From a candidate division LCP-89 bacterium B3_LCP (GTDB lineage Bacteria > Electryoneota > B3-LCP), in the NCBI GenBank assembly GCA_005223185.1, contig NJBN01000003.1, forward strand, positions 124,001-188,000: a stretch of 64,000 nt of DNA, read 5' to 3'. Below are positions 47,321 to 57,022 of the stretch, in pieces (the stretch's first letter is position 1; each line of letters begins with the position of its first letter). The notes under the pieces were generated by a model that ran no database searches, was not told where the DNA came from, and saw nothing but the letters and a program-made list of their open reading frames with translations. A program made the position numbers and the translations under genes.

Positions 47321-49495
47321 ATGAATAGATATAATTTCAAGTCAATAATTGCCGGATTGCTACTTACACTGCTGTCATCCGGAAATATGGCGCCAACTTT
47401 CGCCAGCATTGACGTTACCTTTACGGATGTGGCGGCTGAAGCAGGCATTGAACTGAATATTCTCTCACAAGGCGCTGCTTTCTTCGATGAAAATGGAGAT
47501 GGCAAGGAAGACCTTTATCTGGCAGTAGGTGGTTTCATTTCCGGTGACAATGTGTATTACCGTTCCCGAGGAGATCTGACCTTTGAAATTGCCACTGCCG
47601 AAGTGAACCTGATAGATTCAGGACCTTCCACCATGGATCTGGTTGCCGACTTCAATAATGATGGACTTATGGACGTCTATGTAACCAGTCATGATTACTT
47701 AGGAATCCCCAACCACATGTATTACCGCCAGGCGGGAGGTAGTTACTTAGACGTAACAGCCTCCACTGGAACCGGTCACCAGTATGAATCGCACGACGCT
47801 ATGGCATTCGATTACGATGGTGACGGCTGGTTGGACCTCTTCGTTGCCAGCGCCAATCACATGGGTATCGAACCTAACGCTCTCTACCATAACAACGGCG
47901 ACGGTACCTTCACCGACATGGCTGTGGTGCTGGGATTGGATCTTTCTGAATTCTATGGTATGGGCGGTTCTGCCGGCGATTATGACAACGACGGTGATCC
48001 TGACATCTACATAGCTAACGAATTCACCGACAACGTCCTCTTTCGCAATGATGGTGGCACGTTCACAGATGTAACCGCCACAGCCGGTGTAGCAGCCGCA
48101 GGAGCCAGCAAGTCTGCCTATTTCGAGGACTACGATGCTGATGGCTGGTTGGATATCTACTTAGTGAGTCGTTTTGGAACAAATCAGCTCTTCCGTAACA
48201 ACGGCGATGGCACATTTTCGGATGTAACTGTCAGTGCAGGCGTAACTGACAGTCAACAGGGTCGCACTATGGGTTGGGCGGATTTCGACAATGACGGCTG
48301 GTTGGATATCTTCGTCTGTAATAGTGATCTCCCCGGCAGCAATGAGTTCCTCTGGCACAACCAGGGGGATGGAACCTTTATAGACGAAGCCATAGCGGTG
48401 GGGATCAATGATCCGTACTATTCGGATGGCTTATCCATCGGAGATCCCAACGGTGACGGATTCATGGATATCTACATTTCCAACCAGGCCGCCATGGATC
48501 GGTTGTATGTCAATTCCGGTAACAGCAATCACTGGATTTCCATAGCCCCCAGTGGCAGAACTTCCACAAACCAGGCTGGCGTGGGCGTCAGAGTAACTGT
48601 CGTAACCGATACGCACCGTCAGTTCAGAGAAGTGCAATCCGGGGGAGGTTACCAATCCCACATGAGTCTGCCGGTGGAATTTGGAATGGGAAGTTCAACC
48701 TCCGCCGATTCAATCATCATCCGCTGGACGGACGGTCATGAAGAGATATACACCAATGTAGCTGCCGATTTGTACTACATCGCAGTTGAAGACAGCACCC
48801 TATATCCTTTCTCTCTGCCAGAATTAGCTATATCAGCCACGCCGTCAGGATCGGTGATTATTCCCTCACAGGGTGGAACGATTGACTTCAATATCACTTT
48901 AGAAAACATGTCGGGAAACACGCTCTCATTCGATATATGGACGGAGATTCGCCTGCCTAATAACATCAGCTTCGGTCCCACTATAAACCGAGCTCTTAAT
49001 CTGCCGCCTACTATAATCTCTCGTGATTTGACTCAAGGAGTTCCTGCGGGAGCGCCTGCGGGAACTTACACCTATTACGCTTTCGTGGGTGATCAATCGC
49101 AGCAGTCAGTGTGGACTTACGGCAGTTTCGATTTCACTAAGAGTGGAATTGATGGCAGTACCAGCGGCTTCGTGTTCCCCGATTGCCAGGAGATAGAAAT
49201 CTTCGGTTCGGTAGATGAAACCAAAACGGTTATCTCACCCGAAATGAAGCCACCCTCACCCAATCCCTTCAACCCCACAACTGTGGTGGAATTCGCCATC
49301 CCCAAACCGGATCATGTGAAACTGGCACTCTTCAATTCTATGGGGCGGAAAGTTCTGGATATAGTTGACGGTTACAGGCAGGCTGGTCAACACCAGTTGA
49401 CCGTAAATGCGGGGCATCTGCCTTCCGGAGTTTACTTCCTGCGCTTTGAAGCTTCAGGTATTTCTCAGGTATCAAAAGCGTTGCTGGTGAAATAG
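47321..49495 (+). CDS. FG-GAP/VCBS repeat protein with ASPIC/UnbV domain and T9SS sorting domain
   Basis: 724 residues. The signal peptide (1-28) is followed by about seven FG-GAP/VCBS repeats with the D-x-D-x-D-G-x-x-D-I/L-F/Y calcium loop (DYDGDGWLDLFVA, DFDNDGWLDIFVC). An ASPIC/UnbV domain (about 405-490, NHWISIAPSGRTSTNQAGVG) and the shared pre-sorting beta domain (about 505-605) come next. The T9SS tail starts PSPNPFNPTT and ends ALLVK. The repeats probably form a calcium-bound beta-propeller. Likely a surface binding protein; ligand unknown. Confidence 0.92.
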   Translation: MNRYNFKSIIAGLLLTLLSSGNMAPTFASIDVTFTDVAAEAGIELNILSQGAAFFDENGDGKEDLYLAVGGFISGDNVYYRSRGDLTFEIATAEVNLIDSGPSTMDLVADFNNDGLMDVYVTSHDYLGIPNHMYYRQAGGSYLDVTASTGTGHQYESHDAMAFDYDGDGWLDLFVASANHMGIEPNALYHNNGDGTFTDMAVVLGLDLSEFYGMGGSAGDYDNDGDPDIYIANEFTDNVLFRNDGGTFTDVTATAGVAAAGASKSAYFEDYDADGWLDIYLVSRFGTNQLFRNNGDGTFSDVTVSAGVTDSQQGRTMGWADFDNDGWLDIFVCNSDLPGSNEFLWHNQGDGTFIDEAIAVGINDPYYSDGLSIGDPNGDGFMDIYISNQAAMDRLYVNSGNSNHWISIAPSGRTSTNQAGVGVRVTVVTDTHRQFREVQSGGGYQSHMSLPVEFGMGSSTSADSIIIRWTDGHEEIYTNVAADLYYIAVEDSTLYPFSLPELAISATPSGSVIIPSQGGTIDFNITLENMSGNTLSFDIWTEIRLPNNISFGPTINRALNLPPTIISRDLTQGVPAGAPAGTYTYYAFVGDQSQQSVWTYGSFDFTKSGIDGSTSGFVFPDCQEIEIFGSVDETKTVISPEMKPPSPNPFNPTTVVEFAIPKPDHVKLALFNSMGRKVLDIVDGYRQAGQHQLTVNAGHLPSGVYFLRFEASGISQVSKALLVK

Positions 49496-49760: not shown

Positions 49761-51200
49761 CTACTTCTTCCTCCACCTCACTCCCCCAGGCGTATCCTGT
49801 ATGATAATCCCTTCGGAAGCTAACAGGTCGCGGATTTCATCAGAACGGGCGAAATCTTTGGCTTGGCGGGCTTGTTTCCGCTCTTCTATCAGCGCTTCGA
49901 TCCGTTCAACATCTATCTCTCCCCTTTCTTCAGGCCGAATCACGCCCAGCACCCTGTCCCAATCCATGAGAAGATCATCGAGCGCTACCGCATCAACGGC
50001 AGTGACTTGCGCTTCATCCAGCAAACGGTTCACATCCTTTATCATTCCGAAGAGCGCCCCTAACGCTCCTGATATGTCCAGGTCATTACCTAACGCTCCT
50101 TTGAATGAGGAACGAGCCTTATCAATAATATCCAGTATATCATCACCTGCTTCTCCGCTGTCTTCCCCCTGTTTCTGCAGTTCCGCTAATTTAGTTCGAA
50201 ATTCATCTATGCGATCCAGTGCCCCGGAAGCCGCATCGAAGCTGTCAGTAATGTTATTATCAGGGTCATACACTAAGTTCAGAGGTTGCCGGTAATGCGC
50301 AGATAGCAGGAAATACCTCACTGCCCGCGGTGAAATACCGGTTGAAGTGACCTCTTTCAGTTTGAAGAAATTGTTCAACGATTTCGACATCTTCTCACTA
50401 TTAACCATCAAGTGTGCATTGTGCATCCACACGTTGACGAAATCACCACCGTAACCACAAAGGGACTGCGCTATCTCATTTTCGTGATGCGGAAAGATGT
50501 TGTCAACACCACCGCTATGTATGTCGAAATGTTCTCCCAAATACTTTGTGGACATGGCGGAACACTCAATGTGCCAGCCGGGTCTCCCTTTTCCAATTGA
50601 AGTATCCCAGAAGACGTCGCCGTCATCAGGTGTCCAGCTCTTCCATAAGGCAAAATCCCGCACGTCCTCCTTCTCATATTCATCCGAATCCACACGCACC
50701 CCGGATCTCAAGTCATCCAATTTCACATTAGCCAAACGACCATATGCAGGAAAACTGCTGATCCTGAAGTAGATAGACCCGTCAGTTTCATAGGTATGTC
50801 CATTGGCGATGAGCTTCTCTATCAATTCCACCATCTCAGGAATATGTTTGGTGGCTTCCGGATAGAATTCAGCCCTCTCGATCCGCAGTGCATCTAAATC
50901 CTCAAAGAAGGATTCTGTATATTCCCTGGTGTATTCCTGTAAAGTTACCCCCCTTTCCCGGCTCTTTCTGATAGTTTTATCATCCACGTCAGTCAGGTTC
51001 ATCACCTGGATAACACTGTAACCGAAGAACTTCAGCGTCCGTCTTAAGATATCTTCGAAAATATAGGCGCGGTAATTACCTAAGTGAGCAAAATCATGCA
51101 CGGTCGGTCCGCACGTGTACATCCGCACTTCGTCGGCAATTATGGGCTTGAATGGCTCCTTTCGCCGCGTAAATGTATTGTAGAATCGTAACTCTTCCAT
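49761..51200 (-). CDS. cysS: Cysteinyl-tRNA synthetase
   Basis: 479 residues. The zinc Cys is C30 in MYTCGPTVHDF, the HIGH-type motif is AHLGNYRAYIFED, other zinc ligands are in WHIECSAMS and FPHHENEIAQS, and the KMSKS motif is SEKMSKSLNNF near residue 270. It charges tRNA-Cys. It is downstream of the CDP-alcohol transferase gene by about 107 bases. Confidence 0.97.
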   Translation of the reverse strand: MEELRFYNTFTRRKEPFKPIIADEVRMYTCGPTVHDFAHLGNYRAYIFEDILRRTLKFFGYSVIQVMNLTDVDDKTIRKSRERGVTLQEYTREYTESFFEDLDALRIERAEFYPEATKHIPEMVELIEKLIANGHTYETDGSIYFRISSFPAYGRLANVKLDDLRSGVRVDSDEYEKEDVRDFALWKSWTPDDGDVFWDTSIGKGRPGWHIECSAMSTKYLGEHFDIHSGGVDNIFPHHENEIAQSLCGYGGDFVNVWMHNAHLMVNSEKMSKSLNNFFKLKEVTSTGISPRAVRYFLLSAHYRQPLNLVYDPDNNITDSFDAASGALDRIDEFRTKLAELQKQGEDSGEAGDDILDIIDKARSSFKGALGNDLDISGALGALFGMIKDVNRLLDEAQVTAVDAVALDDLLMDWDRVLGVIRPEERGEIDVERIEALIEERKQARQAKDFARSDEIRDLLASEGIIIQDTPGGVRWRKK

Positions 51201-51307: not shown

Positions 51308-51961
51308 TCAAGCTTTACCCTCACTTCGGTTTGACCCGGTGCTTTGTCCCGCGCTGTCAGGCTTCATCACTCTGGACCCGATTGAACCTTCACTGGTAAA
51401 GAAAGCTCTGTAGAACCGCACTCCGTATGAAGTAGTGGAAACTATGATGAAGGAAAAGGAGAGCCACAGCAGGAAATTGTAATTCAGCCATGACAGCCAG
51501 ATAATGGCGGGCTGTAACTGGAGCATATAACTGAAGAGCATCAAAGCTAACACAAATGATGTGCTTTTCCCCCATATATTAGATTTAACCACCACCCTTT
51601 TACGCCGGTATATCAAATAACCGCCGCTTACAACTATAAACTCCCGCACGACTAAAACCCATAGCAGCCAACTGGGAACAGGATTCTCCCTTATGGGCGA
51701 CGCTAGCATCAAACATACCGCAAAGATGCATATCTTATCAGCTACCGGATCTAATAATCTTCCCCAATCGCTTTCCTGTTGCAGTTTACGAGCTAAGTAA
51801 CCATCGAAATAATCAGATAGAACCGCCAATAACATGAAGTTGAGCGCCCACAGATTACCAGAAGCCGTATTCTGGCTCAGCCCCAGATAAATCGGTCCCA
51901 GGAGGAGTACCCTGAAGATACTCATCGCATTGGATAGAGTGAAAGCTTTTCCCTCAGGCAT
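51308..51961 (-). CDS. CDP-alcohol phosphatidyltransferase
   Basis: ATG 51961 is chosen because GGAGG lies seven bases upstream and MPEGKAFTLSNAMSIFRVLL is a typical start. The 217-residue product carries the family motif D-x2-D-G-x2-A-R-x8-G-x3-D-x3-D as SDYFDGYLARKLQQESDWGR then LLDPVADK, followed by five to six membrane helices. Members make phosphatidylglycerol phosphate (PgsA) or related lipids, and archaeal ether-lipid versions use CDP-archaeol. It is 17 bases downstream of a geranylgeranyl-reductase family gene. That makes an isoprenoid-lipid substrate possible, but an ordinary PgsA cannot be excluded. Confidence 0.88.
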   Translation of the reverse strand: MPEGKAFTLSNAMSIFRVLLLGPIYLGLSQNTASGNLWALNFMLLAVLSDYFDGYLARKLQQESDWGRLLDPVADKICIFAVCLMLASPIRENPVPSWLLWVLVVREFIVVSGGYLIYRRKRVVVKSNIWGKSTSFVLALMLFSYMLQLQPAIIWLSWLNYNFLLWLSFSFIIVSTTSYGVRFYRAFFTSEGSIGSRVMKPDSAGQSTGSNRSEGKA

Positions 51962-51978
51962 TTTGGCACCTCCTGCTT

Positions 51979-53151
51979 TCAGAGAAAACATCTCGCTATG
52001 TCTATCAGTATTTTGGGATGCCGCGCTAAAGTTGTGCGAAAAACCTGCTTTAAAGTTATCTGTTCCGACGGTATCTCAGCTAATATGTGCGCGGCATTAT
52101 TAAGCGTCACGTCACTTAACTTATTAACAACTTCTTTGATTCGGTATAACCGCCTGTGCTCTCCCCCCCATTGATCCTCCCACTTTTTCGTATAGACGGC
52201 AAGATTCTTCTCGAGATACGATCCGTTCTTGAGACTTTCGCAAGCTATTTCACCAGCCAATTTCCCGGCAGCGATGGCGTTGGTAATACCGCCTCCGGTT
52301 AAAGGGCTAGCCTGCCCTGCCGCATCGCCGGCTAATAAAATACCGTCTCCGTGCACCTTTTTAAAAGGCTTGGTGTTGGGGACTCCCCCCGCTACGCATG
52401 CTAAAACAGATGCTCCAGGAAAGCGCTTTTCTACAAAACGCTCTAAATAATCCTGGGCCTTTAATTCTTCACTGCGATTAGCAGAAATACCTAAACCAAC
52501 ATTAGCGGTATCCTCATCCTTGGGAAACACCCAGGCGTATCCACCCGGCGCGACGTTCGTACCAAAATAACAGCTCACATAATCAGTATTTACAGAAATC
52601 CCACCCAGCGTCATCTGGTAACAGCTTTCCAGATCCTTGGGAACGTGATGAGTTCTAATGCCAGCCCACCGGCCCACTCTCGATTCCACACCATCGGCTG
52701 CGATAATGATCTTAGCTTTAATCTCTTTATTCCCATCAGGTAAACTAACCTTAACCCCCCCAATTTTACCCGATTGAAAAACCAGACCGTTCACGTATGC
52801 ACGAGTTATAATTCGAGCCCCAGCTTGTGCCGCCATTCTCCCCAAATCATGATCAAAAATCCGCCTGTTTAGAATGCAGCCGACATCATCAGTTTTAAAA
52901 ACGAATTCAGTTCCATCTGGAGCAATAAATCGCACCGAGTTCAGCTTTACGGTAACAGCCTGTGGATTCGGTTGGACGTACTTTAAGAGAGTCTTCCACC
53001 CAACTGCCTCAGCACAGCGAACCGGTATCCCCAGTTCACGATCCTTTTCTAACAAAAGAACAGAAGCACCACCCAAAGCAGCCCACCTTGCCGCTGTAGT
53101 TCCTGCGGGACCACCCCCCACGACAATGATATCGTAGCTATCGTTTATCAT
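51979..53151 (-). CDS. Geranylgeranyl reductase family FAD-dependent oxidoreductase
   Basis: The start at 53151 overlaps the ferredoxin stop (ATGA); the longer frame to 53214 lies inside the ferredoxin gene. 390 residues. The FAD-binding motif is IIVVGGGPAGTTAAR, then PVRCAEAVGW with the family Cys, PGGYAWVFPKDEDTANVGLG with the GGR signature Y-x-W-x-F-P, and LLAGDAAGQASPLTGGGI. The family reduces isoprenoid double bonds in archaeal lipids, chlorophyll phytol or menaquinone tails. Some archaeal members are fed electrons by a ferredoxin encoded next door, as is the case here. Confidence 0.92.
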   Translation of the reverse strand: MINDSYDIIVVGGGPAGTTAARWAALGGASVLLLEKDRELGIPVRCAEAVGWKTLLKYVQPNPQAVTVKLNSVRFIAPDGTEFVFKTDDVGCILNRRIFDHDLGRMAAQAGARIITRAYVNGLVFQSGKIGGVKVSLPDGNKEIKAKIIIAADGVESRVGRWAGIRTHHVPKDLESCYQMTLGGISVNTDYVSCYFGTNVAPGGYAWVFPKDEDTANVGLGISANRSEELKAQDYLERFVEKRFPGASVLACVAGGVPNTKPFKKVHGDGILLAGDAAGQASPLTGGGITNAIAAGKLAGEIACESLKNGSYLEKNLAVYTKKWEDQWGGEHRRLYRIKEVVNKLSDVTLNNAAHILAEIPSEQITLKQVFRTTLARHPKILIDIARCFL

Positions 53152-53378
53152 GCGGTTTCCCCCACTAATGCGCTGACCGGGCAGGCATAAGGACAATTGC
53201 CGCACAATGTACACTTAATCATATCGATAGATATTTTCTTCTCTTCAAGTTCAATACAATCAACGGGACAAACCGCTACACAGCAACCGCAATAATCGCA
53301 ATTTTCTTCCTTTATAATAAGTGAGGTAAGTTCGGTGCGTTTTCCTTTTCTTTTCGCTCTATAGTTCATCACACTCAA
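53148..53378 (-). CDS. Two-cluster [4Fe-4S] ferredoxin
   Basis: 76 residues. Two complete C-x2-C-x2-C-x3-C-P sets are seen: CDYCGCCVAVCPVDC and CTLCGNCPYACPV. A basic N-terminal extension (YRAKRKGKRTEL) precedes them. It starts by overlapping the UbiA gene stop by 4 bases and ends overlapping the GGR gene by 4 bases. The strict coupling suggests it is the dedicated electron donor for the reductase. Confidence 0.95.
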   Translation of the reverse strand: MSVMNYRAKRKGKRTELTSLIIKEENCDYCGCCVAVCPVDCIELEEKKISIDMIKCTLCGNCPYACPVSALVGETA

Positions 53379-54334
53379 ATTGTCTCAATCTCCTCCATCT
53401 GCCTTTTTTGGACAATAACGCTCTCTTCTGGCGTCACCTTAGAATCAAAGCCAGGGTAATTTAAGCCTAATCTTTCGCGGTGATACCAACGTGCAAAAGG
53501 ATAATAAAGGGCGATAATCACCAGAAAGGGAATCCAGGTCAATCCTACCCCTATAGCTATACAGAATATGGATATTTTAACCGCAAATTGCGCTGTTTCA
53601 CTGCTCTTTAATAGATAGTACCTGATGAAGAACGGCAGAGATATCAGGGAAGCTGCCAGCAGAATGTAATCACGCAGGAAATAGGTTAATATAGCGCATA
53701 ATCCAACCAGACCGCAAGCCCATGCTCCCGTTTTCGTTAGACCATAAACCGCCGGGAAAGTGCGCACACCCGCCTGACGATCACCTTTTATATCTGGCAC
53801 ATGAGTGAGCAGAGTTACAGCCGCCCCCGCCAAAGCATAAGGCAAACCATAAACTAAACCTGGTAGCAGAGCACCCTCTCCTGCGCGCATTCCAATAAGA
53901 AAGAAGAGCCAAACACCTATACCGCAGGCAATAATACCCGATATGGGTCTCGCTTTCAAGCGAAATGGTGGAAAATTATAAAAATATCCGCCGATTAGAA
54001 AATATGCAGTTAACAGAAGAGAAAGTTCTAATCCAGCCCAGATTCCACCGACAACCGCTGCCGCGATCAGTAGAACGAGTTCGGCATATATGGTTCTGGT
54101 CGATAAGTATTTTCCCCAGAGTGCCCAGAGCTTGCTGTTTAATCTGTCCTCCTGCCTATCACTCAACTGGTTGAGTAAAAAAGAAGCCCCCATCCCAGCA
54201 GCGAGCCACAGCATTAATAAAGCAGGATTACTCCCATTGCCTCGACTATAACCAGCCAGGAAGAACGTCCAGGCAGGGAAAAACAGCGTAGGGCGCAGGA
54301 TGAAGAATGTATCGAACCAGCCGGGCTTGACCAT
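53375..54334 (-). CDS. UbiA-family prenyltransferase
   Basis: 319 residues with about eight membrane helices. The first Asp-rich motif is NQLSDRQEDR (N-x-x-x-D-x-x-x-D) near 55-65, and the second is VPDIKGDRQAGVRTFPAVYG near 190. UbiA enzymes transfer prenyl groups to quinone rings, chlorophyllide, haem or, in archaea, to geranylgeranylglyceryl phosphate (DGGGP synthase). The following genes (ferredoxin, GGR, CDP-alcohol transferase) fit the lipid branch best. A quinone function remains possible. Confidence 0.9.
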   Translation of the reverse strand: MVKPGWFDTFFILRPTLFFPAWTFFLAGYSRGNGSNPALLMLWLAAGMGASFLLNQLSDRQEDRLNSKLWALWGKYLSTRTIYAELVLLIAAAVVGGIWAGLELSLLLTAYFLIGGYFYNFPPFRLKARPISGIIACGIGVWLFFLIGMRAGEGALLPGLVYGLPYALAGAAVTLLTHVPDIKGDRQAGVRTFPAVYGLTKTGAWACGLVGLCAILTYFLRDYILLAASLISLPFFIRYYLLKSSETAQFAVKISIFCIAIGVGLTWIPFLVIIALYYPFARWYHRERLGLNYPGFDSKVTPEESVIVQKRQMEEIETI

Positions 54335-54408: not shown

Positions 54409-55854
54409 TTATTCCTTATCATCCTTGAATTCAAGTTCCATGATGTGAGTAGTATGTTCTAAAAGATGCTTATCGCAAGCCTCCTTGATCTCTACCGGAT
54501 AATCACCGGTAAAACAACAGGTGCAATATCCGCATCTCCCCACCGGAACGGCGCGAAGTAAACCCTCTATAGAGAGATAATTAAGTGAATCGACGCCTAA
54601 GAAACTGCGCACTTCTTCCACATCCTTGTGCGAAGCAACCAATTCCTTGCTGGTGGGAAAATCCATACCGAAGAAGCAAGGATAGCGAATCGGCGGTGAA
54701 CTGATGCGCAGGTGCACTTCAGAGGCGCCTGCGTGGCGGATCAACGAAGTCAACTTCTTCAGAGTTGTCCCCCGCACTATAGAATCATCCACAACCACCA
54801 CACTTCTACCTCGAAGCACCCCGCCAACGGTATTGAATTTCACCCTGACGTTATAGTCCCTCATAACCTGAGACGGATGAATAAAAGTGCGCCCGATATA
54901 GTGGTTGCGTATTAAGGCAAGTTCATAAGGCAACCCCGCTTTCTGAGCATACCCTAACGCCGCAGTATTCGACGAATCAGGCACTGAAATGACTATATCA
55001 GCCCCGGGAGTGGGGCTCTCTTCAGCCAAAACTTTGCCCAATTTCCGGCGCGTTTTATCCACATACTCGCCAAATATGCGGCTGTCAGGTCGAGAAAAAT
55101 AGATGAATTCAAATATGCATTGCGTTACGCTATCGACGGGCGGCAGGTGATGGCTTTTTACACCATCTTCGCTTACTACTACGATTTCTCCGGCGTCGAC
55201 GTCACGGATATAAGTTGCTTCAACCAGATCCAGAGCACACGATTCACTAGCGAAAACAACCGTACCGTCTTTACTGCCCATGCACAACGGTCGAAACCCA
55301 TGCGGATCCCGAACTGCGATTATAGAATCCTCAGTCAAAATAACCAGGGCATAGGCGCCCTCGATCTGCCCTAAAGCATCGCGTAGTTGACCGATCAAAT
55401 CCGATTTTCTCGATCTCGCCAATAAATGCAGGATCACTTCGCTGTCAGCCGATGAAGAGAAAATACTACCCGCGCGTTCTAATTGCTGACGCAGAGACCC
55501 TGAATTAACCAGGTTACCATTATGAGCCAGCGCCAAAGCTCCACCATGGTAGTTGATCGCCATTGGTTGCGTATTGGCAACTGAGGTCGAACCAGTGGTC
55601 GAATAACGGTTATGACCAATCGCTAAGTGACCCTTTAATTTCTTCAAGTTATGCGGGTTGGCAAAGACGTCCGCTACTAAACCTAAGTCTGCATGGCGAT
55701 AGAGATTTTCGCCATCAGAACTGACTATCCCGGTTGATTCCTGCCCACGATGCTGAAGAGCATGCAAACCCATGAAGGTCATCTCCGCAGCGTTGGGACT
55801 GTTAAAGACGGCAAAAATACCGCAGAATTCTTTTTTTCCGGAAGGTTGGCTCAT
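54409..55854 (-). CDS. purF: Amidophosphoribosyltransferase PurF
   Basis: The start MSQPSGKKEFCGIF (ATG 55854) gives 481 residues. A longer open frame reaching 56043 is rejected because it contains the promoter at 55894-55922 and overlaps the upstream gene. A nine-residue propeptide precedes the catalytic Cys of CGIFAVF. LQHRGQESTGI, the PRPP loop VVVVDDSIVRGTTL and the four Cys of the Bacillus-type 4Fe-4S site (CIFEFIYF, YPCFFGMD, CGYCTCCF) are seen. It catalyses the first step of purine synthesis. Confidence 0.95.
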   Translation of the reverse strand: MSQPSGKKEFCGIFAVFNSPNAAEMTFMGLHALQHRGQESTGIVSSDGENLYRHADLGLVADVFANPHNLKKLKGHLAIGHNRYSTTGSTSVANTQPMAINYHGGALALAHNGNLVNSGSLRQQLERAGSIFSSSADSEVILHLLARSRKSDLIGQLRDALGQIEGAYALVILTEDSIIAVRDPHGFRPLCMGSKDGTVVFASESCALDLVEATYIRDVDAGEIVVVSEDGVKSHHLPPVDSVTQCIFEFIYFSRPDSRIFGEYVDKTRRKLGKVLAEESPTPGADIVISVPDSSNTAALGYAQKAGLPYELALIRNHYIGRTFIHPSQVMRDYNVRVKFNTVGGVLRGRSVVVVDDSIVRGTTLKKLTSLIRHAGASEVHLRISSPPIRYPCFFGMDFPTSKELVASHKDVEEVRSFLGVDSLNYLSIEGLLRAVPVGRCGYCTCCFTGDYPVEIKEACDKHLLEHTTHIMELEFKDDKE

Positions 55855-55893
55855 TTTATCAGTTCTTAGGAAAATTGCAGGTCTTAACGTAGT

Positions 55894-55922
55894 ATTATAA
55901 AGGATTATCAACCTAAAAACAA
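55894..55922 (-). promoter_or_regulatory. Promoter of purF
   Basis: On the minus strand: TTGTTT, a 17-base spacer, TATAAT, about 40 bases upstream of the purF ATG at 55854. Confidence 0.6.
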
Positions 55923-55969
55923 CAGAAATTTTCAGAAACGTACCATGATGAAGTTGCCAATTCCTAAAA

Positions 55970-57022
55970 CTACGGCTCAATAACGATCGGATTGGAAAAA
56001 ATAAAGGCGCGACGGCGGCGCCGCGCTTCCACGCGATAAACACCGGAACCGATACTGCGAAATGACCCTTCGGCGTCCTTCCAGTGGCAGATCTGCTGAC
56101 TGTCCTTCAACAGAACAGCGTGAGTTACATCCGGCGGCAGGTTTACGTGAAAAGTTAGCTGACTGACTGCTGGCAATCGGTCACCCATCTGGTATATTTT
56201 GCTGTCTTCTACACCTTCAGCCCAGAACCGAAATCCCCTGGCTTGACCGACATAACGGTTAGCCACAAACGCGCGGCCTTGGCGTAGAGTCTGAAATAGT
56301 TGTGTCAAAGCTGCATCATCATTCCCCTCTTCGGGAGGTTCATCAAATAGCACGTGCATGTGAATGGAACGAAAGGCTATCTTATACGGGAAGATGGAGG
56401 CGTTGACGTTTCTCCAGATGGAATAGTGATGCGCATGAGCATCGACACCGCCCAAACCGACAACCCTACGCTTTAGATTTAATCGATCCCAGGTCTTCAA
56501 AGTCCATTCTGTCGGTGTTATCACGGATCGCCTGGGATTGATGTAGAGCCAGTATTTATTGCGGTTAGTCAGCCTCTCCATCCATTCCGACAGATGATTC
56601 CAGATCTCCATCGCCTGGAAATCTTCGCTATCCCAGGTTGTCCACGGATAAGCAGGAAATTCGGGCAGAGCATCACGCCGTTCATCAGGGTGAGCTACAA
56701 CCGCCCAGCCTCCCATTTCGACGACCTTCTTAGTATATTCAAGAGGATCAATTCCCGCTTTAATCTCTTCATCTATTTGGAACGCTAACAGGTGATTTCG
56801 TCCCTTACTGTCATTTAATTCACAGCCAATTCCAACTAAAATGCCATTGTGGAAGCCTTCCCTTCCCTGTTGCTTCGGTTTCAGCGTCCAGTGATCGGAA
56901 AACAGAAGAAATTCCAATCCGGCGTCGGTTGCATCCTGAATCACCTGGTCATAATGACCGGAGCCATCTGAAAATACCGTATGTATATGAACCGCTCCGA
57001 CTTTTTCGTATAATCGCTGCAT
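55970..57022 (-). CDS. PHP-domain metal-dependent hydrolase
   Basis: 350 residues. The PHP metal site is seen in VGAVHIHTVFSDGSGHYDQV (H-x-H and later D/H), LLFSDHWTLK and WAVVAHPDERRDA, with a later G-x-DAHAHHYS segment. Members hydrolyse phosphoesters or act as phosphatases; the substrate is unknown. A C-terminal beta-domain (about 260-350) follows the PHP core. It lies 20 bases after the YfiM-like gene. Confidence 0.85.
   Translation of the reverse strand: MQRLYEKVGAVHIHTVFSDGSGHYDQVIQDATDAGLEFLLFSDHWTLKPKQQGREGFHNGILVGIGCELNDSKGRNHLLAFQIDEEIKAGIDPLEYTKKVVEMGGWAVVAHPDERRDALPEFPAYPWTTWDSEDFQAMEIWNHLSEWMERLTNRNKYWLYINPRRSVITPTEWTLKTWDRLNLKRRVVGLGGVDAHAHHYSIWRNVNASIFPYKIAFRSIHMHVLFDEPPEEGNDDAALTQLFQTLRQGRAFVANRYVGQARGFRFWAEGVEDSKIYQMGDRLPAVSQLTFHVNLPPDVTHAVLLKDSQQICHWKDAEGSFRSIGSGVYRVEARRRRRAFIFSNPIVIEP

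Follow-up and report, generated by a model that had tools for sequence, protein, structure and literature searches.

A conserved UbiA–ferredoxin–geranylgeranyl reductase–CDP-alcohol transferase cluster in an LCP-89 bacterium and related phyla, with a possible role in archaeal-type lipid synthesis

INTRODUCTION

Part of the 'lipid divide' question is whether archaeal-type membrane lipids are produced by any bacterium alive today. Archaeal lipid genes have already been described in FCB bacteria: Villanueva et al. (2020, PMC7852524) propose an archaeal-lipid route for Candidatus Cloacimonetes and other FCB bacteria, report that GGGP synthase (GGGPS) and DGGGP synthase (DGGGPS) from Ca. Cloacimonetes made PG-archaeol in E. 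coli, and indicate that bacterial CdsA can replace CarS. We found in that paper no description of a cluster of the kind treated here or of a second lipid-linked UbiA. In Methanosarcina, Thermoplasma and Archaeoglobus the geranylgeranyl reductase (GGR) adjoins a small [4Fe–4S] ferredoxin, and the M. acetivorans GGR depends on the ferredoxin encoded beside it at that locus (PMC10821996). GGRs are promiscuous in vitro, accepting isoprenols, GGPP and phospholipids (PMC9385802). Some GGR-family enzymes, such as AF_PR, reduce menaquinone (PMC10821996), which we count against a lipid role for the genes below. Grouping of UbiA enzymes according to their acceptor has also been reported (PMC9385802).

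The window, a 64 000-nt stretch from the uncultured candidate division LCP-89 bacterium B3_LCP, lies on contig C16 of a genome of 18 contigs and 3.79 Mb that is 95.8% complete. This genome resembles the pathway of PMC7852524 in having GGGPS, a DGGGPS homologue, an archaeal-type GGR and bacterial headgroup enzymes, with no G1P dehydrogenase or CarS found. It differs in that its GGGPS and DGGGPS homologue genes are scattered, while the clustered genes encode a UbiA of another clade, a ferredoxin, the GGR and a second PgsA-like enzyme. Unlike the archaeal GGR loci, this one is bacterial and belongs to a cluster that also encodes a UbiA and a CDP-alcohol transferase, and in one relative the ferredoxin and GGR are fused. 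We regard as new both the conservation of this cluster and the additional UbiA clade linked to lipid genes, having found no description of them in the openly accessible literature.

RESULTS

Layout of the cluster

The preliminary description reported four minus-strand ORFs at 51308–54334, and all four are there with their motifs intact. They encode a membrane prenyltransferase, here called UbiAx, that belongs to a UbiA clade of its own (53375–54334; Pfam UbiA, 85.8 bits); a 2x[4Fe–4S] ferredoxin (53148–53369); a GGR of the DGGGPL-reductase type (51979–53151; Pfam GGR_cat, 90.2 bits); and a second PgsA-like CDP-alcohol phosphotransferase (51308–51991; 107.9 bits). Tight packing, with 4-base overlaps among the first three, had also been claimed. 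The ferredoxin and GGR genes do overlap by 4 bases (ATGA), but the other junctions depend on the start codon chosen: UbiA and ferredoxin overlap by 4 bases only with a ferredoxin TTG start at 53378 and are separated by a 5-base gap with the ATG at 53369, and the transferase overlaps the GGR by 13 bases from its ATG at 51991 or lies 14 bases apart from it with the ATG at 51964. The neighbours on the same strand, both outside the pathway, are purF upstream (54409–56043, minus strand), which is conserved, and cysS downstream (49761–51200, minus strand), which is conserved in close relatives. Also beside the cluster, on the plus strand at 47321–49495, is a gene for a large protein that has FG-GAP/UnbV_ASPIC repeats and a Por secretion-system sorting tail.

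The prenyltransferase UbiAx

Both Asp-rich motifs ascribed to the window UbiA are present, as NQLSDRQED (NxxxDxxxD) and DIKGD (DxxxD), and its structural model (pLDDT 90) has the UbiA fold, which together place it in the UbiA superfamily. NxxxDxxxD occurs in 50/50 members of the UbiAx family, as does the N-terminal signature F..RP....P, and the C-terminus has a conserved R.Y...R....YP. The best fold match is AfUbiA (4TQ3) of Archaeoglobus fulgidus (TM 0.63, E 2e-7, 21% identity), followed by MjDGGGPS (6M31; TM 0.60). AfUbiA groups with UbiAx at 100/94 in a 65-protein tree, where its branch is very long and its placement unsure, and it is without the UbiAx end signatures; we found no acceptor stated for it in PMC4106721.

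The genome encodes four UbiA proteins: P0005 (DGGGPS-like), P0006 (MenA-like), P0007 (DPPR-synthase-like) and the window UbiA. In the 65-protein tree UbiAx forms one clade (95/96), to which neither MenA (100/99) nor the archaeal DGGGPS belong; the latter sit with P0005. A 36-protein tree groups P0005 with archaeal DGGGPS at 96/96; forcing archaeal DGGGPS together with UbiAx was rejected (AU p 0.002), while forcing UbiAx to be sister to MenA was not (AU p 0.27). The DGGGPS motif GRExxKDxEDxxGD is found in 0/50 UbiAx, in 13/24 P0005-type proteins and in 1/4 archaeal rows; the third motif D-x2-D-x3-D within it is missing in the window UbiA, which reads LLTHVPDIKGD. UbiAx thus shares the UbiA fold and the Mg-binding Asp motifs with MjDGGGPS but belongs to a separate clade without the DGGGPS motif, and P0005 is the DGGGPS-type protein of this genome. 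The earlier suggestion that the window UbiA is DGGGP synthase is contradicted by the tree, the AU test and the motif. Assignment as MenA, DPPR synthase, ChlG, EboC, UbiA or CyoE was likewise rejected, as the protein falls outside those groups in the tree; in particular the MenA clade (100/99) does not include it, and E. coli UbiA lies elsewhere.

UbiAx is a distinct UbiA clade in LCP-89/Electryoneota, KSB1, Fidelibacterota and Calditrichota. Since UbiA enzymes reportedly group by acceptor, this separation suggests an acceptor different from that of DGGGPS. The cluster also points to a UbiA acceptor for which we found no assignment in the accessible literature.

Ferredoxin and GGR

The small protein between UbiAx and GGR has the two CxxCxxCxxxCP motifs expected of a 2x[4Fe–4S] ferredoxin. 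The GGR, sole GGR_cat protein of the genome, carries the GGYAWVFPK signature noted before, together with PVRCAE and YAWVFPKDEDTANVGLG (YxWxFP-x8-GxG), which matches the archaeal pattern YxWxFP-x7–8-GxG. Its closest solved structure is the T. acidophilum DGGGPL reductase 3OZ2 (E 3e-67), with which it groups in a tree (98/92) that leaves Sulfolobus GGR and BchP outside; MenJ was left out of this tree and compared by model score. The scores were 232 bits for DGGGPL reductase, 126 for BchP-ChlP and 58.6 for MenJ, and the protein is above the TIGR02032 superfamily cut-off and below equivalog cut-offs. The phylogenetic check thus came out on the archaeal side, and MenJ and ChlP-BchP were set aside as identities by their lower scores and by the position of BchP outside the clade.

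In a genome of another phylum (G041, L118:6052–7470) ferredoxin and GGR form a natural fusion of 472 residues, which supports the ferredoxin as the likely electron donor to the GGR. For reduction of DGGGP-type lipids by the pair, which is predicted, adjacency and fusion are circumstantial evidence.

The CDP-alcohol transferase

As had been described, the transferase has the full catalytic motif (DYFDGYLARKLQQESDWGRLLDPVAD), here D-x2-DG-x2-AR-x8/9-G-x3-D-x3-D. It scores 94.5 bits with TIGR00560 against a cut-off of 109.1, whereas the canonical PgsA of this genome scores 131 bits, adjoins pgpA elsewhere and forms a 100/99 group with E. coli PgsA that leaves out the window enzyme. The plain PgsA, which the preliminary description had raised as a test of its proposal, is this other protein of the genome; the transferase has the PgsA motif with a score below the PgsA cut-off, and the best reading is that of a second, specialised PgsA paralogue with predicted substrates. 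Both canonical pairs, pgsA-pgpA and psd-pssA, lie elsewhere in the genome. Two CDP-alcohol transferase-like proteins of other types are encoded in the same genome (L154:1327–2196 and L155:1309–2094), beside methyltransferase genes.

The remainder of the pathway

A search of the genome for GGGPS, G1P dehydrogenase and a CarS-like transferase had been proposed. PcrB-type GGGPS is present (149 bits with PF01884; 304 bits with the NCBIfam model, above cut-off). P0005, encoded outside the window, matches MjDGGGPS at E 1e-30 and is below the PRK12882 equivalog cut-off; its sequence fits the DGGGP synthase role. The genes for these two proteins are scattered in the genome, away from the cluster. G1P dehydrogenase (EgsA/AraM) was not found in the 95.8% complete genome, the hits being aroB and a gene of the purE type, nor was there a PF01864 match for the CDP-archaeol synthase CarS; we count both results against a lipid role. 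About 4 kb from the GGGPS gene are two squalene/phytoene-synthase family genes (L009:3562–5398).

Gene order across phyla

We compared 59 named UbiAx loci from LCP-89, KSB1, Fidelibacterota, Calditrichota and others, 52 of which have at least 1.5 kb downstream. The search used a 13-row alignment and the single pattern FxLRPTLxFP; it misses divergent members and says nothing on absence in archaea or Bacteroidota. UbiAx is followed by ferredoxin in 48 loci, by GGR in 46 and by a CDP-alcohol transferase in 25, and preceded by purF in 49; several of the remaining loci end at contig edges. The UbiA–ferredoxin–GGR order itself recurs in 46/59 named genomes, so it is not a chance arrangement, and purF–UbiAx–ferredoxin–GGR–(CDP transferase) is kept in LCP-89, KSB1, Fidelibacterota and Calditrichota. 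At three loci of relatives (L101, L102 and L107) UbiAx adjoins the CDP-alcohol transferase and GGR is absent. The phylum of G046 has another order, uppS–cdsA–UbiAx, with cdsA (CTP_transf_1) encoding a CTP-transferase that activates lipids. Two unrelated gene orders thus place UbiAx beside CDP-lipid genes. For the Fidelibacterota, a carrier phylum that has been cultured, the lipid record of Fidelibacter multiformis is a fatty-acid methyl ester profile (PMC11652737), and ethers generally go unreported by this method. A search for UbiAx and GGR on plasmids found none.

Co-occurrence across genomes

Counts are given as both/UbiAx only/other only/neither for 61 relatives, with Fisher tests that ignore shared ancestry. 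For UbiAx and PcrB they are 23/2/0/36, so that 23/23 PcrB genomes have UbiAx (p 8e-15, shared ancestry ignored); for P0005-type proteins they are 24/1/1/35, and for strong GGR 20/5/0/36. Family f5 has both in three genomes and neither in four. The joint occurrence of UbiA and GGR with PcrB and the DGGGPS homologue is consistent with a role in lipid synthesis. Counted against that role are the five UbiAx-positive genomes without a strong GGR; a second phylum of 133 genomes, where UbiAx and PcrB are weakly linked (85/25/13/10, p 0.07); and the family of G180–G183 (phylum of G046), where PcrB is kept throughout and UbiAx is absent. Given the weak link in the second phylum and that family, UbiAx is associated with GGGPS and not needed for it.

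DISCUSSION

The archaeal-type lipid module of the preliminary description holds in part. GGGPS, the affinity of the GGR, the ferredoxin–GGR pair (conserved, and fused in another phylum), the second PgsA, the two gene orders and the co-occurrence favour it; the assignment of the window UbiA as DGGGPS fell, and G1P dehydrogenase and CarS were not found in the genome. In our view the cluster more likely than not supplies the last part of an archaeal-type isoprenoid ether-lipid route, and the FCB bacterium that carries it has headgroup enzymes of bacterial type as well. The genes, their families, trees, order and co-occurrence are what we observe, and from them all enzymatic steps, their sequence and the product are predicted. 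GGGP would be made by the PcrB/GGGPS encoded elsewhere, probably from G3P or G1P, and DGGGP by P0005, so the first two ether bonds would come from genes outside the cluster. The window GGR would saturate the geranylgeranyl chains with electrons from the adjacent ferredoxin, and the second PgsA-like enzyme would put a glycerol-phosphate-type headgroup onto a CDP-activated isoprenoid lipid. UbiAx would be a further lipid prenyltransferase of the route, with an acceptor different from that of DGGGPS. More tentatively, and with considerable doubt, UbiAx might transfer a prenyl group, in a reaction so far undescribed, to a glycerolipid that bears phosphate but is not GGGP. The product would be either a third isoprenoid ether or a lipid combining acyl and isoprenoid chains, and the reaction would be a standard step in a bacterial branch of the archaeal-type pathway in several phyla.

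The preliminary description named a quinone-side function as the main alternative. UbiAx would then add the tail to a quinone precursor and GGR with ferredoxin would partly saturate it in the manner of MenJ and the A. fulgidus prenyl reductase, leaving the CDP-alcohol enzyme a mere neighbour. The UbiA and GGR families both include quinone enzymes (PMC10821996), and the trees tolerate UbiAx as sister to MenA (AU p 0.27). This alternative is weakened by the genome's own MenA-type protein, P0006, in a separate clade (100/99), and it does not sit well with the way UbiAx and GGR track GGGPS across the 61 genomes, with the GGR scores (232 bits for DGGGPL reductase against 58 for MenJ) or with CDP-lipid gene neighbours in two independent gene orders; we consider it unlikely, although quinone reduction by the GGR is still compatible with its sequence. 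The window UbiA might be DGGGP synthase after all, by convergence within UbiA, with P0005 having another role. In favour are the link of UbiAx to GGGPS, its position next to lipid genes and a fold near that of MjDGGGPS (TM 0.60). We nevertheless judge this quite improbable, given that P0005 both matches MjDGGGPS (E 1e-30) and groups with archaeal DGGGPS at 96/96, with the alternative rejected at p 0.002, that the DGGGPS motif is in 0/50 UbiAx against 13/24 P0005-type proteins, and that G180–G183 have PcrB and no UbiAx.

A broader function is suggested by the in vitro promiscuity of GGRs (PMC9385802), by the squalene/phytoene synthase genes near PcrB and by the failure to find G1P dehydrogenase and CarS: the substrates saturated by the GGR would be prenyl diphosphates, polyprenyl carriers or isoprenoids of another kind, and the genes would form a general isoprenoid-lipid set in a bacterium making no archaeal-type membrane lipids. 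The co-occurrence with GGGPS and the DGGGPS homologue and the affinity of the GGR to DGGGPL reductase make this improbable in our view.

In the ether-lipid route that we prefer, the conserved cluster ties ferredoxin–GGR, an additional headgroup enzyme and the new clade of UbiA proteins to GGGPS and DGGGPS in several FCB-related phyla, and it offers small expressible gene sets with which the 'lipid divide' question can be tested. The natural loss of UbiAx in G180–G183 could help find what UbiAx depends on. In the cluster of G028 (L113:5051–7792) two GGR genes stand on either side of the ferredoxin, the second without the strict YxWxFP-GxG pattern.
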